From a virus: DNA of 20,604 bases. Location: the IMG/VR virus record IMGVR_UViG_3300025645_000575, positions 1-20,604 of that record; one strand, written 5' to 3'. A program made the position numbers and the translations under genes. The notes under the pieces were generated by a model. It saw nothing but the letters and a program-made list of their open reading frames with translations, was not told the origin of the DNA and did no database searches. Each line of letters opens with the position of its first letter. Positions within the stretch are counted from its first letter, which is position 1. Shown here piece after piece: positions 2,921 to 12,557 of this stretch.

Positions 2921-3406
2921 CTATAGAAACGGGACTCTATTCTCTTTTAAGTGTGCTTCACTGACGGTGATAAAAGCCCAGTTTCTCGCTCTACAGAAGT
3001 CGCTAGCAGCTTGCCATTTGGCCTTATTTATAAGGAACATTTTCATTTCATAAATGAAAGTAGTCTGCTTTTTGTTTTTCCTAGGTTGGGGTGATTTACC
3101 CTCAACAATAGCGGTAATCTCTTTTTGAGGCTTTATTTCGACAACTATAGGCCCATGGCTTTTGGTTTCTATATATAAATCTGTCCAGTATTGACTGGGT
3201 TTCTTTTTTAGAGGGTGTGTGTAGGGTACAAAGACGACCTCACTCCCCCAACGTGTGATGTTGGGGGAGTTGTCAATTCGCCACATGTAATCCAACTCCA
3301 ATTGGGAACGATACTCAATTGGAGTTTTGTTTATATTCTTTTCAGGATATCTTGGTTTGTAGATACCTTGGTGATATGATGGTCTAGGTTTTCTGTTCTT
3401 CGCCAT
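2921..3406 (-). CDS. Head-completion protein, T4 gp4-like, TnsA/endonuclease fold
   Basis: 161 residues, close to T4 gp4 (about 150). The basic N-terminus with YHQGIYKPRYPEK is typical of this family. A PD-(D/E)XK-type nuclease pattern is visible: E37 in YRSQLELDYM, D76 in YWTDLYIE, and E90-x-K92 in IVVEIKP. In T4, gp4 acts after DNA packaging to finish the head before tail joining. The likely catalytic residues are all present here, so the protein may be an active nuclease rather than only structural. It lies downstream of the large fibre gene and just after a mini-ORF and T4-late-like promoter. The ATG has TATAATAG directly before it and no Shine-Dalgarno. The assignment rests on motif pattern and length. 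Confidence 0.75.
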   Translation of the reverse strand: MAKNRKPRPSYHQGIYKPRYPEKNINKTPIEYRSQLELDYMWRIDNSPNITRWGSEVVFVPYTHPLKKKPSQYWTDLYIETKSHGPIVVEIKPQKEITAIVEGKSPQPRKNKKQTTFIYEMKMFLINKAKWQAASDFCRARNWAFITVSEAHLKENRVPFL

Positions 3407-3417
3407 CTATTATAGTA

Positions 3418-3456
3418 TTACGATAATTCTGGACGCATAGCTATGCGATAACCCAT
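3418..3456 (-). other. Mini-ORF MGYRIAMRPELS, leader-peptide-like
   Basis: A 12-codon ORF lies between a T4-late-like promoter and the gp4-like gene. Its first codons match those of the 986-aa fibre gene (MGYR here, MGYK there). Within Gly and Tyr the two differ only at third codon positions, and the next codon change is Arg/Lys. It ends 11 bases before the gp4-like ATG, so it could be a translated leader, or it could be the decayed start of a second fibre gene copy. A 14-bp palindrome lies inside it. Confidence 0.35.
3434..3447. repeat. 14-bp perfect palindrome CGCATAGCTATGCG
   Basis: The palindrome sits inside the mini-ORF, between the late promoter and the gp4-like start. It could be an operator for a dimeric regulator, or a small RNA stem, although a loop-free perfect dyad makes a poor hairpin. 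No second copy was seen in the window. Confidence 0.4.
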
Positions 3457-3472
3457 GTTGTTATTATTTATA
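3452..3472 (-). promoter_or_regulatory. T4-late-like promoter TATAAATA, copy A of a 21-bp cassette
   Basis: On the minus strand TATAAATA (3465-3472) is followed by ATAACAAC and an ATG at 3456. All 21 bases from the box through ATGGG recur exactly at 6443-6463, before the 986-aa fibre gene. The octamer equals the T4 late promoter consensus. It would drive the mini-ORF and the gp4-like gene. Confidence 0.6.
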
Positions 3473-3486
3473 ATAAATTGAGTTTA

Positions 3487-6447
3487 TTATCCAATTATCC
3501 AGCTTGATCCGTCATTGTAAACTGGCACGAAATTTGCACCACCACCTGCTGCTGCTGATCCTTCATTACCTGCATGGACTACTGACCCATCTGTCATAAA
3601 TGAACGCATACCTGCCACATCTGTGAGAGCATCAAGAGTTGCGAATGTGTATGCAGTATGATGTGTAACTCCTTTGAGATGAGTATCAGTTACGGAATTG
3701 TTACCTAAAGTAACAGTATCACTACCATTACCTACAGCAGTATGACCAATAACGACTTCATTATCGGTAGTATTAGAAGCTGATCTAACAAACGCACCTA
3801 TATAAATTGAATCAGTTGAGAATTGATTCGCAGTAGATCCATTAGCAATATAATATCCAGAGAACTGTCCGATAGAAACATTGTCAGTTCCTGTAGTGTT
3901 ACTACCTAATGACAAGTATCCAACACCACAATTACCAGTCCCTGTCGTCTTCCCTAAAGCTGCACGACCAAACGCACTATTAGTGCCACCAGTCAAATTA
4001 TCATTAAGTGCCCCGAACCCGAAAGAACAATTATTTGCCCCAGTCGTGTTTTTAGTCGAAGATAAACTACCAAATGCAGTATTACCTGAGCCAGTGCTTG
4101 CTGCTAATGCTCTATGACCGAAAGCACTAACGTCACTAGCTGTCACGTTACCACCACCTGCCACGTTACCAAATGCGCTATTATTGATACCAGTGGTATT
4201 ATTCTGTAAGGCTAGATATCCAAATGCAGAATTGAAATCTGCAAGATTATTCGATAGTGCTGACGAACCACAGGCAGTATTACCATCACCTGTAACATTT
4301 AAACTTAGTGCCGAACTACCTATTGAAGTATTAAAGTCACCAGTTGTATTAACGTTGAGTGCGACGAAACCGATTCCAGTATTACTAGCTCCAGTATTAA
4401 ATAATCCTGCATTTAGTCCTACGAAGATTGATGTGCTTGGAGTTTCTATCCTATCTCCGGTCAATGTTATAATACCTTTGAGATGAGTATCAGTTACGGA
4501 ATCGTTACCTAATGTAATAGTATTGCTACCATTACCAACTGCATCATATCCTATGACGATTTCATTGGTCGGAGTGAATGTCTTTGCTCGTGACTGTGAA
4601 CCTATGAAAATACACTCGTCTGCCGAGGTTAAAGTCGAAGTTCCACTCCCTCTCCAATGACCAGCATACCTTCCTAGTGCAGTGTTATTGTCACCTGAAA
4701 CAATCCTTCCCAATGAATTGTGACCGATTGCTGTAGTATTAGAACCTTCTGAAAAATGCGCTGAATAACTTCCCAAATTGGCATTATTAGTTCCTATTAA
4801 ATTACTGTACCCTGCTCTGTATCCGAATGCGGTATTGTCACCTGTAGAGACATCCTTCCTTGCAGCCTCAACCCCGACAGCAGTGTTGTAATTTCCAGTA
4901 GTTGAATCTGCCAATGCGTATCTCCCGACAGCAGTGTTGAATTGTCCTGTAGTATTACTGGTTAGTACGTTGGCACCAATACCAGTAATACCAGTTGCCG
5001 TGTTATTTACACCTGCTAGACTACCAATGAAAGTATTGGAAATCGCACTGGTAATGCTTTTTCCAGCATTATATCCAATTCCAATGTTGTCTGTGCCTAC
5101 TGTATTATTATACAGTGTATCAAAACCAATACCAACGTTGTAATTTCCTGAAATGTTATTATATAGGGCGCGAAATCCGACTCCTATATTCGAATCACCT
5201 ACAGTATTCGCTTGCAGAGATAGACTACCGAATGCAGTGTTATTCTCACCCGTAGAAGATTGCTTCAATGTCTGATAACCGAAAGCTGTATTGAAGCTTT
5301 CTGTTGAAAGTTGCAATGCATCCTGCCCCATACTAGTGTTATCTCCAACTACATGAATCCAATCTTGAATCGTCAATGCTAGAAACTCGGGCGAATCCGC
5401 AATATTAAGATCCTGATCGAAGGGATTACCTCCACCTCCACCCGATACCTGTTCCATTACACCATTGTTGTTAGCCCAAAGATCGACCGAGCTTAGAGAT
5501 GTATTGAGATGAAGACCCATATCGCCATCAATCGGGTATTCTGTAGTGGTGGCATTTGCAGCAGTTTCGGTTCTCTGGTTGAATATACTATCCAGAGTAA
5601 CCTTACCTTTCAGGTAAGTATCTGTAATAGCTGCATTTCCTAGAGTGATAGTATTACTACCATTACCAGTTACGTCATATCCAATGACGATCTCATTATT
5701 ACCACCATCAACTAAAGCTTTAGTTTCCCTACCTAAATATAGCGAGTTGGATGAAATCGTATTACTAACCGCTCCACCGCCAATATATCTACCAGCATAG
5801 TATCCGAGAGCAGTATTGCCGTCCGTTGTAGTGATATGACGAAGTGCGTGTGATCCAGAAGCAGTGTTGAAGTCCGCTGTAGTGATATTACGAAGTGCGG
5901 CATATCCACAAGCGTTATTTTCAATCCCAGTTATAAGATTTTCTAAGGAAAACGTCCCCAACCCTAAATTGGACCATCCTGTGGTAACGGATTTCAAAGA
6001 ATCAATCCCAACTCCAGTATTATACTGCCCCTGAAATCCTGAAGAATTAGACGCAGACGTGCCTCCACCTCCGACATACAAAGACCCATGATATTCAAGT
6101 GAGCCTTGATCAGGTATGCGGAGTGTGTTGATACCATTCATAGCTAAGGTTTCGCCTGTTAGGTTGAGCGTGCCAAATGTCGGGAAGTTTGTTGTATTAA
6201 GATCTTGATCAAATGGATTCCCGCCGCCCCCTAAACCACTCAAATCTACAACATCAGTTGTAGCATCTGAACCAGATAGAATTAGATCAGTTCCAGAAAG
6301 ACTATGAGTATATGTGGTATTAGTGTCATCAATAGAACCTAAAGCTCCTATCTGATACCTTAATGCTTCCTTTTCGGGTTCAGTATTAACATCACCTAAA
6401 ACAAATTTAGTCGCAGCTAGTGACATTTCTCTACCTTTGTATCCCAT
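3487..6447 (-). CDS. Long repeat tail fibre, YadA-head-like NTAxG repeats
   Basis: 986 residues in three modules. Each module is a run of ~22-residue repeats of the form 'GxxNTAxGxxAL' (e.g. GNYNTAVGVEAA, GENNTAFGSLSL), like the left-handed beta-roll head of trimeric autotransporter adhesins. Each run ends in a conserved cap of the form NEIVIGYD, GNGSNTITLGN and TDTHLKG, present three times. A GGGGNPFDQDLN linker occurs twice, near residues 73 and 340. The protein is probably a trimeric, rod-shaped host-contact fibre. No chaperone or peptidase domain is seen; the end is VYNDGSSWIIG. The start at 6447 is preferred because the MGY codons are conserved in a duplicated upstream cassette. The alternative ATG at 6426 has a Shine-Dalgarno-like AAAGGTAGAG and cannot be excluded. 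Confidence 0.8.
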   Translation of the reverse strand: MGYKGREMSLAATKFVLGDVNTEPEKEALRYQIGALGSIDDTNTTYTHSLSGTDLILSGSDATTDVVDLSGLGGGGNPFDQDLNTTNFPTFGTLNLTGETLAMNGINTLRIPDQGSLEYHGSLYVGGGGTSASNSSGFQGQYNTGVGIDSLKSVTTGWSNLGLGTFSLENLITGIENNACGYAALRNITTADFNTASGSHALRHITTTDGNTALGYYAGRYIGGGAVSNTISSNSLYLGRETKALVDGGNNEIVIGYDVTGNGSNTITLGNAAITDTYLKGKVTLDSIFNQRTETAANATTTEYPIDGDMGLHLNTSLSSVDLWANNNGVMEQVSGGGGGNPFDQDLNIADSPEFLALTIQDWIHVVGDNTSMGQDALQLSTESFNTAFGYQTLKQSSTGENNTAFGSLSLQANTVGDSNIGVGFRALYNNISGNYNVGIGFDTLYNNTVGTDNIGIGYNAGKSITSAISNTFIGSLAGVNNTATGITGIGANVLTSNTTGQFNTAVGRYALADSTTGNYNTAVGVEAARKDVSTGDNTAFGYRAGYSNLIGTNNANLGSYSAHFSEGSNTTAIGHNSLGRIVSGDNNTALGRYAGHWRGSGTSTLTSADECIFIGSQSRAKTFTPTNEIVIGYDAVGNGSNTITLGNDSVTDTHLKGIITLTGDRIETPSTSIFVGLNAGLFNTGASNTGIGFVALNVNTTGDFNTSIGSSALSLNVTGDGNTACGSSALSNNLADFNSAFGYLALQNNTTGINNSAFGNVAGGGNVTASDVSAFGHRALAASTGSGNTAFGSLSSTKNTTGANNCSFGFGALNDNLTGGTNSAFGRAALGKTTGTGNCGVGYLSLGSNTTGTDNVSIGQFSGYYIANGSTANQFSTDSIYIGAFVRSASNTTDNEVVIGHTAVGNGSDTVTLGNNSVTDTHLKGVTHHTAYTFATLDALTDVAGMRSFMTDGSVVHAGNEGSAAAGGGANFVPVYNDGSSWIIG
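3671..3698. repeat. 28-bp direct repeat inside fibre gene (copy 1; copy 2 at 4475-4502)
   Basis: The 28 bases at 3671-3698 recur exactly at 4475-4502 and more loosely near 5600. They encode the SVTDTHLKG part of the cap modules. They are coding repeats that mark recent module duplication and could allow recombination that deletes or adds a repeat module. Confidence 0.8.
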
Positions 6448-6463
6448 GTTGTTATTATTTATA
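6443..6463 (-). promoter_or_regulatory. T4-late-like promoter TATAAATA, copy B, for the fibre gene
   Basis: TATAAATA on the minus strand (6456-6463), followed by ATAACAAC and the fibre ATG at 6447. The cassette is identical over 21 bases to 3452-3472. With a T4-like start site about six bases after the box, the mRNA would have a leader of only a few bases before the first ATG, or about 25 bases before the ATG at 6426. Confidence 0.65.
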
Positions 6464-6479: not shown

Positions 6480-6497
6480 AAAAAATCAATTATTGAT
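6480..6497 (-). terminator. Weak hairpin plus T-run after the propeller gene
   Basis: On the minus strand ATCAA-TAA-TTGAT is followed by a run of six T. The stop codon of the 573-aa gene is the loop. The five-bp, AT-rich stem makes this a weak terminator at best. It lies just ahead of the fibre promoter. Confidence 0.3.
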
Positions 6498-8211
6498 CAT
6501 CATATGCGGCACAAGATCCATCAATATACTCAGCCCCAGACTCATCATCATAAAGAGCCTCTTCACAAAGTGCGAATAGACTACAAGACCAATCATTATA
6601 CTCCGCACCAGACCAATCATCATAAAAGGCGTCTTCACAAAATAGAGATTCTTCGGAATATATACTACAAGACCCACCATTATACGCTGCACCAAACATA
6701 CCAAAGTATAACGCATCATCACAAATACAAAGAGGGATACAACTTAATGCAGGCACCGAAAGCTCCTTGAGTGATAATGGTGTCAGTTGGGGGTTGAATA
6801 GTTGGGGTGTGACACCGCAGCAGGATTGCGCACCTAAGCTCCAGTTGATAGAATCTAGGTAATCCGTGGAATTTGCAGAAAGAGCCGCTGTAGCACTAAC
6901 TGAGGTGTCAAAAACTTCAATACCAAACAGTTGGTCTCTGGTGTCTTCCAGCAAACTGTATAATTTACTGAATGTCCTTTCCCATGGATGGCAGGATACT
7001 ACCTCGTCATGTCTATGTAATATTTGGTGGTCGAACGTCAACCCAATCGAAGACACGGGTTCAATGGAAATATCGAGTAAATTGGATTCACCGTCCAATG
7101 TGGATACAAAGCGACCATTGACTCTCTGTGAGAAATCATCCAAGTTATTGTAGATTTTTACAAAGGAGTCATTCACTACATAATCGGTAGCCAACTCATC
7201 GGGTAGGATGTTTATGGCGGATAGTGGTGTAGCGAACCCAGAACCGTCTAGTATACTCTGAGAAAACTGGTATTCGAGATCATGGTTCATTACACCTGAG
7301 GACACTCGGAATAGGCCGGTTCCATACCGAACCAAATCCGTCATGGTTGTCTCAACCCTGCTGGCAATGAACAACCCATTCGTTGCGAACTTTTTAATCT
7401 CGTTTGAGTTGGCCACCCAAACAAATCCCAATTGAACGGAATCGACCGTAATAAGTAGTGGGTTAGTGATTCCGTGCGCTATAGACACCTCGTTATATCT
7501 TATGAATTCCGGAGTTATTTCGTACACCACCCCACCCACCACATCAACACTTATCGCGCCTGTGATGTCGATGAATTCCAAAAATGATAAATTCGAGTTA
7601 TATGCCTTCAGGACACCTGCGCCAATGTCCATTATATACAACAGACCACCGTCAACTATTATCTTAGAAGCTTTGGTGAATAGATACTCTTCGGTATTGT
7701 TTCCAGTTCCCCCAAAAAATGATACAAAGTTGAATGTGGTATCGGTGAGTGTGAGTTTAATGATAAAATTACCATCAAGTATGTATAACTCATTACCATT
7801 TAGCGCAACACCCCTTATGTCGAAAAACTCACCGAATTGAGTTAATTTTAATGTCTGAAGTAAGACCCCTAATTTATAGACACGTATCTCTTTTTTGGTG
7901 TGGATAACTTCGTAAGACGAGTTGATGTCTACTCCGATGACATCATCACCATATTCCACACAAGGGGTAGAGTCTATTGGGAGGATGTTGTTATACAATT
8001 TCGAATAACCCTCTAGGTATTCTAGGTTATCGTAAAATTTAGAGAATATTGGGTTTACGTTCTTCGCAAAAAAGAAATCATACGCTAGGTTGAATTCGCC
8101 TTGGTCGTGGGGGAAGCTGAACGGTGTGCTTATAGTCCGGAAAATGCCCGAATCATATTCTTCCAAAGAGTCAACTGGAATGTTTTCGGGAAATGTTGAT
8201 GATAAGCTCAC
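6490..8211 (-). CDS. Beta-propeller-like tail protein with C-terminal Cys/acidic repeats
   Basis: 573 residues, not assigned to a known family. Residues about 85-310 carry blade-like units of the NHL/propeller type: GVALNGNELYILDGNFIIKL, KIIVDGGLLYIMDIG and LGFVWVANSNEIKKFATNG. The last ~83 residues are very different, with three units of roughly 24-28 residues: CDDALYFGMFGAAYNGGSCS, CEDAFYDDWSGAEYNDWSCS and CEEALYDDESGAEYIDGSCA. They are rich in Cys, Tyr and acidic residues. A role as a tail-tip or fibre-network protein is inferred from its position between the fibre and baseplate genes. The start is GTG at 8211, supported by an AATAATTA box six bases upstream; no Shine-Dalgarno is present. 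The acidic repeat tail could bind metal or form disulfide-linked hooks, but this is not shown. Confidence 0.65.
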   Translation of the reverse strand: MSLSSTFPENIPVDSLEEYDSGIFRTISTPFSFPHDQGEFNLAYDFFFAKNVNPIFSKFYDNLEYLEGYSKLYNNILPIDSTPCVEYGDDVIGVDINSSYEVIHTKKEIRVYKLGVLLQTLKLTQFGEFFDIRGVALNGNELYILDGNFIIKLTLTDTTFNFVSFFGGTGNNTEEYLFTKASKIIVDGGLLYIMDIGAGVLKAYNSNLSFLEFIDITGAISVDVVGGVVYEITPEFIRYNEVSIAHGITNPLLITVDSVQLGFVWVANSNEIKKFATNGLFIASRVETTMTDLVRYGTGLFRVSSGVMNHDLEYQFSQSILDGSGFATPLSAINILPDELATDYVVNDSFVKIYNNLDDFSQRVNGRFVSTLDGESNLLDISIEPVSSIGLTFDHQILHRHDEVVSCHPWERTFSKLYSLLEDTRDQLFGIEVFDTSVSATAALSANSTDYLDSINWSLGAQSCCGVTPQLFNPQLTPLSLKELSVPALSCIPLCICDDALYFGMFGAAYNGGSCSIYSEESLFCEDAFYDDWSGAEYNDWSCSLFALCEEALYDDESGAEYIDGSCAAYDDQ

Positions 8212-8678: not shown

Positions 8679-9182
8679 TTATTCTTTAGTTGCTTTTGTT
8701 CCTTTAGTGAGACGATCAAGCTCATCTAGGTTAATCTTCTTAGAGAGTGTTTTGGGTAGACCTGCGATGTCCTGCCTTTTGAAGAACATGAAATTCTTCA
8801 AAATTTTGTTAATCCTCTCCGAGTTTTGGTCAACATCAAATGTCTTAAGGTCACTATAATGCTTATGTAGTAACCCCGCATCCTCATCACCTACTAGGCG
8901 GATTGCTTGGTTCAATACCTCCCTGTCCACATTCTTAAAAATATAAATCTTAAGTTGCTTCTTCTCATGTTCGGTCAATTCTTTAGTATCAATATCTCTA
9001 GTGTCACCATTTAGGTTAGCGACCTGTTGTGGGATCAGGCCGATATCATCGTAATGATCGAAACGCTTATTAACAAAATCTCTACCAAAAAGTGAAAAGA
9101 GGGGATCTTGGGTAATCTCGCTTGCCTCTTCAACTAAATCTGTTGCATCTTCTCCGAAAAAGTAGTCTTTAAAGTTATCCAT
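8679..9182 (-). CDS. Unknown helical baseplate-region protein (167 aa)
   Basis: Not recognised. The protein is charged and largely helical: N-terminal DNFKDYFFGEDATDLVEEAS, a middle IPQQVANLNGDTRDIDTKEL, then ELTEHEKKQLKIYIFKNVDR and a basic C-terminus (LDRLTKGTKATKE). There is no signal peptide, TM segment or catalytic motif. It lies 13 bases after the gp53-like gene, so a baseplate or tail-completion role is plausible from context only. A CTAAATAA element lies about ten bases before the ATG, but its spacing differs from the other late boxes, so I do not call it a promoter. Confidence 0.65.
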   Translation of the reverse strand: MDNFKDYFFGEDATDLVEEASEITQDPLFSLFGRDFVNKRFDHYDDIGLIPQQVANLNGDTRDIDTKELTEHEKKQLKIYIFKNVDREVLNQAIRLVGDEDAGLLHKHYSDLKTFDVDQNSERINKILKNFMFFKRQDIAGLPKTLSKKINLDELDRLTKGTKATKE

Positions 9183-11776: not shown

Positions 11777-11803
11777 TAAACGTATTTTTTGAATACGTTT
11801 AGA
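11775..11803 (-). terminator. 12-bp perfect hairpin between the two terminase-type genes
   Basis: TCTAAACGTATT and AATACGTTTAGA pair perfectly around a five-base loop. The stop codon of the TerL-like gene lies in the stem. No T-run follows on the minus strand, so it may be a processing site, a 3'-end stabiliser or a factor-dependent stop, rather than a classical terminator. Confidence 0.55.
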
Positions 11804-12557
11804 TGCCCTCTTGTCTCAAAAACGATCCAATGGAACCCGTCAAATTGACGCCCTCAGTGACACCCTTGTCGGTATATTCATTAATATTCCCTGAAAATGG
11901 GGCGAATTTCAGCACATCGATGGTGCGTGACCCCAAACGAGAGTTTCGAATTATACCCGAAAATAGATTATTGGAGTCATAGTGTTTTGTGGATATCAAC
12001 CCAAACGACCCACCCGCCATGTCGATTGTGGGCATAACGTCTTGGCAATTTTGCTCATATACACGCCCACTATCGGGGTGCCCTGCTTCTTCTCCGATGA
12101 AGTGTGTGGTGGAACGCTCCCTCCATACACTGGGGGATTTCATAGAAGCTATTCTGATACTATTCCCATTTTTAAAACGAATAATTCCCGATTCGTATTG
12201 TGTAACAAGTGAGTTATCGGAAAACTTTTTAGGGACGTTTTTCAGGAATGTGTTAAAGGTGTCCTGCCATGAACGTGCGACCATACTGTTATACACGCCA
12301 ATAGATAAGTTGAACACCCCCATGTGAAAGGTGAGCTTCCATGTCGCCCAAACTTGAACTAACGTAGTCTTACCAACTCGTCGGGGGGTTTCGATTGCAT
12401 AACTTTTGGAGGATTCCATTAGGTCGATAGCGGATTCCTGATTTGCCGTTAATTTGACACCCAAGTAATTCTCCGAAAAATACGATACATCATCACGACA
12501 TTTGATGTATTCTTTAAGGTCATCGACGGTGTAGCTATCCAAATAAAAAAGACTCAT
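11799..12557 (-). CDS. Stand-alone terminase-type ATPase (TerL paralogue without nuclease)
   Basis: 252 residues that resemble only the ATPase half of TerL. TANQESAIDL (Q40) matches the adenine-binding Q region; Walker A is TPRRVGKTT (57-65); FIGEEAG (153-159) sits where TerL has LIIDEAA, with Glu156 replacing the Walker B Asp; FGLISTKHYDSNN matches the coupling motif (STK in place of STP). The protein ends without the RNase H-fold nuclease. It lies directly upstream of full-length TerL, in the same direction. It could be a motor subunit or regulator, a packaging-restart factor, or a decaying duplicate; conserved motifs and an intact frame argue against simple decay. A CATAGTTA box lies five bases before the ATG, and the start codon is inside a terminator stem. 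Confidence 0.8.
   Translation of the reverse strand: MSLFYLDSYTVDDLKEYIKCRDDVSYFSENYLGVKLTANQESAIDLMESSKSYAIETPRRVGKTTLVQVWATWKLTFHMGVFNLSIGVYNSMVARSWQDTFNTFLKNVPKKFSDNSLVTQYESGIIRFKNGNSIRIASMKSPSVWRERSTTHFIGEEAGHPDSGRVYEQNCQDVMPTIDMAGGSFGLISTKHYDSNNLFSGIIRNSRLGSRTIDVLKFAPFSGNINEYTDKGVTEGVNLTGSIGSFLRQEGI

Follow-up and report, generated by a model that had tools for sequence, protein, structure and literature searches.

A 12-codon ORF conserved in two phages between a duplicated late promoter box and the gp4 gene

The window, i.e., the whole stretch of 20,604 nucleotides analysed here, derives from an uncultivated T4-type phage and holds a 21-bp block that stands both before a gp4-type gene and before a 986-aa fibre gene, and the gp4-side copy runs into a 12-codon ORF that has a counterpart at the same place in a relative (L004 below). 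This ORF is, judging from its conservation, probably a translated leader for gp4 and not debris. We consider it about an even bet (probability near 0.5) that the whole arrangement is an exchangeable fibre module bracketed by twin late promoters, with the mini-ORF coupling translation to gp4. If true, a host-recognition gene could be gained or lost while the essential gene that follows stays expressed, the phage copying a promoter and keeping a tiny translated leader as ribosome entry. The features are, in the order of transcription:

6490..8211 (-): 573-aa upstream gene with a Cys-rich repeated C-terminus; its homologue adjoins gp4 in a fibre-less relative
6456..6463 (-): late promoter box TATAAATA, fibre-side copy, T4-type
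6443..6463 (-): 21-bp cassette, fibre-side copy (exact repeat, shuffle test)
3487..6447 (-): 986-aa fibre/spike-like gene between the cassettes (tail-spike/virion-structural PHROG matches); N-terminus MGYKGREMSLAATKF common with L004, body not
3465..3472 (-): late promoter box TATAAATA, gp4-side copy, T4-type (box-to-ATG statistics)
3452..3472 (-): 21-bp cassette TATAAATAATAACAACATGGG, gp4-side copy (exact repeat, shuffle test)
3418..3456 (-): 12-codon ORF MGYRIAMRPELS with TAA stop, probable translated gp4 leader (ortholog MGWRFSIRPELM at equal distance in L004, selection test)
3434..3447 (no strand): 14-bp palindrome CGCATAGCTATGCG inside the ORF, a chance feature (shuffles, absent in L004, no fold signal)
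3407..3417 (-): 11-nt spacer TACTATAATAG from mini-ORF stop to gp4 ATG, without Shine-Dalgarno or A at -3/-6, of equal length in L004
2921..3406 (-): gp4-type head-closure (head completion) gene, 161 aa (phrog_218, E 3e-37; 65% identity to L004)

Twin cassettes around the fibre gene

The 21-bp repeat is confirmed and exceeds chance expectation. Its two exact copies lie 2991 nt apart with none elsewhere in the window, as a preliminary description made from the letters alone had reported (about three kilobases), and the longest repeat in 40 dinucleotide-preserving shuffles of the window was 16 bp; only one 28-bp repeat within the fibre gene exceeds it among the exact direct repeats of the window. 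The PHROG matches likewise bear out that description in its naming of the gp4-like and fibre genes. The cassette is composed of a T4-type late promoter followed by ATGGG, the box being TATAAATA in both window copies and the variant TATAATTA in L004. That this is a late promoter, as first proposed, agrees with the T4-like NATAAATA boxes near start codons across the lineage and with G001, a relative, encoding a homologue of the gp55 late sigma factor (phrog_234, E 2.8e-11, in two pieces of one 287-aa frame); none was found in the 20.6-kb window or in the 55-kb contig G004, both of which are fragments. Both cassette copies are predicted to be active promoters.

Relatives were sought with gp4, the upstream gene, the fibre N-terminus and the terminase as queries, together with genomes and peptide patterns, and these scans yielded two phages, one that has the mini-ORF and is represented by three contigs, the other lacking the fibre module (blastn against named phages gave no match). 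The three IMG/VR contigs of the former, L004, L005 and L006, represent one phage, the largest contig being the 139.6-kb G001; it has the gene order upstream gene, fibre, gp4 in common with the window. The latter, L082, is a contig of 55.6 kb (G004) with a terminase 47% identical to that of G001 and a gp4 of 54-60% identity. Here the upstream gene ends with TAA, one T follows and then the ATG of gp4, with no fibre, promoter or mini-ORF in between. This may be either the ancestral arrangement or a loss; it demonstrates that close translational contact of gp4 with the preceding gene is viable.

At the two corresponding places of G001, before and after the fibre gene, there is likewise a repeat, with copies 1603 nt apart and a sequence unlike that of the window. 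It comprises 26 bp exactly and 64 bp at 91% (counted on the alignment), spanning GTATACTCCGATTAAATAATTAACTT to TATAATTAATATTTA and GGGATA, and within 139 kb TATAATTAATATTTA is present solely at the two repeat copies. The first copy begins inside the upstream gene's last codons (GTA TAC TCC GAT TAA), and the second copy thus includes a non-coding fossil of that end, preserved in the gp4-side copy as GTATACTCCGATTAA (VYSD and stop). Since the repeat sequences differ between the phages, either each lineage made its own duplication or the copies are kept alike by conversion; the duplicated cassette in two phages, coupled with the fossil, suggests that a duplication bounded the fibre gene. The gene at the fibre position of L004/G001 encodes 500 aa with a GDSL hydrolase domain and its body is unrelated to the spike-like protein of the window, but the fibre start is identical at 43/45 nt and the gp4 start at 110/120 nt. 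Unrelated bodies next to starts of more than 90% identity fit module exchange between conserved borders.

These repeats, phage-specific in sequence yet placed alike in both phages, together with the fossil, the dissimilar fibre bodies and the module-free L082, would also be expected if the site were a recombination border only, with twin cassettes that fibre exchange has left behind and may have used, and an ORF that is incidental in leader DNA conserved otherwise. We find this somewhat unlikely, because permuting the columns of the aligned ORFs gives p 0.0007, third positions are the most variable, and frame and stop are kept despite a DNA drift to 64%. The suggestion that the ORF is a scar of a lost second fibre gene survives in part: the window and L004 both have the cassette in duplicate, and the gp4-side copy of L004 retains the last codons of the upstream gene, but no remains of a second fibre were seen and the ORF is unlike fibre sequence beyond MGY. 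Insertion of the fibre module could also have left the upstream gene's 3' end behind at gp4 as the mini-ORF, in favour of which are the upstream gene of L082, which ends right at gp4, and a weak likeness of NPNLTA to RPELS; however, the DNA of the L082 3' end aligned with the two leaders no better than shuffles did (p 0.12 and 0.45), and we rejected this origin as highly improbable.

Intergenic repeated regulatory elements tied to module shuffling are reportedly known in T4-type phages as PeSL, mobile regulatory cassettes that Arbiol et al. 2010 are said to have described as early-promoter stem-loops. The present elements resemble them in being such repeats and differ in consisting of a late promoter without a stem-loop that flanks a structural fibre gene.

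Three further observations concern the module and its borders. The >90% DNA identity at both starts (window 3287-3406 (-), the first 120 nt of gp4, well above the remaining gp4; and 6403-6447 (-), the first 45 nt of the fibre gene, whose bodies are far more diverged) may reflect recent exchange or some constraint. An internal ATG (MSLAATKF) with AAAGG before it could be the fibre start instead; the first codons, almost identical in DNA, do not distinguish between the two starts. The Cys-rich repeated tail of the upstream gene (window 6490-6720 (-), L004 2980-3288) is present in both fibre-bearing phages and absent in the fibre-less L082, and is perhaps linked to fibre attachment.

Conservation of the 12-codon ORF

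As had been described, 3456-3418 (-) reads MGYRIAMRPELS and then a stop (ATG GGT TAT CGC ATA GCT ATG CGT CCA GAA TTA TCG TAA). The corresponding position of L004/G001, likewise 50 nt ahead of gp4, is also occupied by an ORF of 12 codons, which ends in the identical stop and shows no indel (ATG GGA TGG AGA TTC AGC ATA CGC CCA GAA TTG ATG TAA, i.e., MGWRFSIRPELM and stop). Fifteen of the 33 internal positions differ, four, three and eight of them at codon positions 1, 2 and 3, respectively, while the peptides score 35 in BLOSUM62 against a null mean of 6-9 (p ~2e-4 to 7e-4). Three null models were used, among them the alignment-column permutation already quoted and a scattering of an equal number of changes, and such a score was reached in 0.02-0.07% of trials; the basis is one pair of 12-codon sequences from two independent phages. 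A score so far above the nulls, together with the excess of third-position changes, suggests that the reading frame is selected and not just the DNA, and as the leader DNA is only 64% identical (32/50), similar to the gp4 body, the likeness is not mere recent common sequence. Selection on the peptide had earlier been suggested from the MGY common to both cassettes, just three codons beside a copied promoter; the comparison between phages provides stronger evidence for it. The same junction comparison, which had been proposed as a check, found ORF length, position, stop and peptide kept and the palindrome missing, and the leader-peptide reading of the preliminary description gains from it. From this conservation of ORF and peptide, shown in two phages, we infer translation and coupling.

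Phages make tiny proteins, and a conserved peptide could also be a small protein of 12 residues with a separate function (e.g., virion or ribosome binding) that merely lies before gp4. This seems to us clearly unlikely, given that homologues beyond these two phages were absent from two IMG/VR pattern scans and that the exact 11-nt stop-to-start distance in both fits a leader better. The same two scans gave no further mini-ORF before a gp4 gene, and five additional peptide-pattern matches were chance. A frameshift fusion of mini-ORF and gp4 was rejected, stops directly preceding the ATG in gp4's own frame in both phages.

Box spacing and the start of gp4

Near gene starts of this lineage the box stands at a fixed distance. 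ATAA[AT]TA lies exactly 5 nt before the ATG in 4/5 occurrences in the window, 17/25 in G001 and 15/23 in G004, against an expectation of 0.01-0.06 per position. Both window cassettes stand at 8 nt, and the ATG of the L004 mini-ORF follows the box by 24 nt. The 5-nt boxes of the window are at 1019 (+), 9555 (-), 11763 (-) and 16334 (-), and genes with such a box in the three phages include terminase, sheath and gp53-like genes. T4 late promoters (TATAAATA, the gp55-gp33-gp45 system) have the same 8-bp box without a -35 element, and G001 has a gp55 homologue as well; however, their boxes lie 10-35 nt before starts (0/15 at 5 nt), often with a Shine-Dalgarno sequence in between. The cyanophage late promoter NATAAATA of S-PM2 and Syn9 (PMC2984593) has the same motif, but in the S-PM2 stretch tested the boxes are mostly 19-40 nt from annotated starts and none is at 5.

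In T4 the late box is located about one helical turn upstream of the transcription start site (PMC2988020), and by this geometry an mRNA from a box at 5 nt would begin with the A of the AUG. The spacing in three phages thus predicts leaderless late mRNAs. In principle, the fixed spacing might also mark a translation signal; the likeness of the box to T4 late promoters and the gp55 gene point to a promoter. We tentatively suggest, at slightly less than an even chance, a T4-type lineage with leaderless late mRNAs (gp55-type box 5 nt before the AUG) in which a conserved mini-ORF near the mRNA head loads ribosomes for non-leaderless genes such as gp4. We found no paper on leaderless mRNA in connection with T4-type late promoters, the AR9 paper only remarking that phage transcripts are often leaderless. 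The fixed promoter-AUG spacing would, if true, provide the T4 superfamily with a clear example of leaderless late expression, and true gene starts in such phages could be found by a simple signal.

For the gp4 site, we postulate the following. It would mark where an exchangeable fibre module ends downstream, this module being bracketed by two copies of one late promoter, one firing the fibre gene and the other gp4. On the gp4 side transcription would start ~6 nt after the box, leaving a ~3-nt 5' leader that opens on the AUG of the 12-codon ORF, and ribosomes would translate MGYRIAMRPELS, stop at UAA and start gp4 11 nt downstream. The mini-ORF would thus replace the coupling of gp4 to its upstream neighbour found in the fibre-less relative (stop and start 1 nt apart). 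Owing to its 24-nt distance from the box, the mini-ORF of L004 would perform the coupling step only, without the leaderless step.

The mini-ORF is a candidate ribosome supplier because the gp4 start has no Shine-Dalgarno sequence (dG +0.5 and -0.4) and carries T, not A, at -3 and -6; A at these positions favours initiation in F. johnsoniae and E. coli (PMC6847099). Against this model speak the presence of the mini-ORF in only two phages, the window cassettes at 8 nt and not at the lineage's usual 5, and some Shine-Dalgarno sites at the window's other genes (33% vs 9.5% in shuffles), and re-initiation as the main coupling mechanism in E. coli is disputed (PMC7538156). The proposed element resembles short translated coupled leaders in its short ORF with a stop 11 nt before the next start, and differs from them in the possible entry from a near-leaderless phage late mRNA and in that no arrest or attenuator structure was seen. 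Over the 133 predicted genes of G001 there is no Shine-Dalgarno enrichment, and positions -12, -6 and -3 are A-rich, as described for Bacteroidetes, which suggests a host of that kind.

The palindrome and minor observations

The palindrome CGCATAGCTATGCG noted earlier is indeed present at 3434-3447, but its significance is not borne out: the window has two 14-bp palindromes where 1.1 are expected, and 70% of shuffles contain at least one. A perfect 14-bp palindrome immediately after a promoter might be bound by a repressor, or form an RNA hairpin, and so control gp4, as the preliminary description had considered. However, its count is at chance level, it is missing at the corresponding place in L004 and folding of the leader RNA is on a par with shuffles (z-score 0.07); a dyad neither conserved among relatives nor beyond chance leaves the operator or hairpin with hardly any credence, and we rejected it.

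Elsewhere in the window, a 252-aa terminase-like ATPase fragment (Walker-type PRRVGKTT) is encoded at 11799-12557 (-), directly before the full gp17 gene; the matching start in G001 (122868) ends after 26 codons. G001 also has, at 111578-114370 (L069), several copies of repeats that reach 58 bp in length (GTGGAGGCGCGATCTAAACCGAACTCCGTTCGG and neighbours) over 3 kb, and a repeat related to this group is found at 9095 and 9605.
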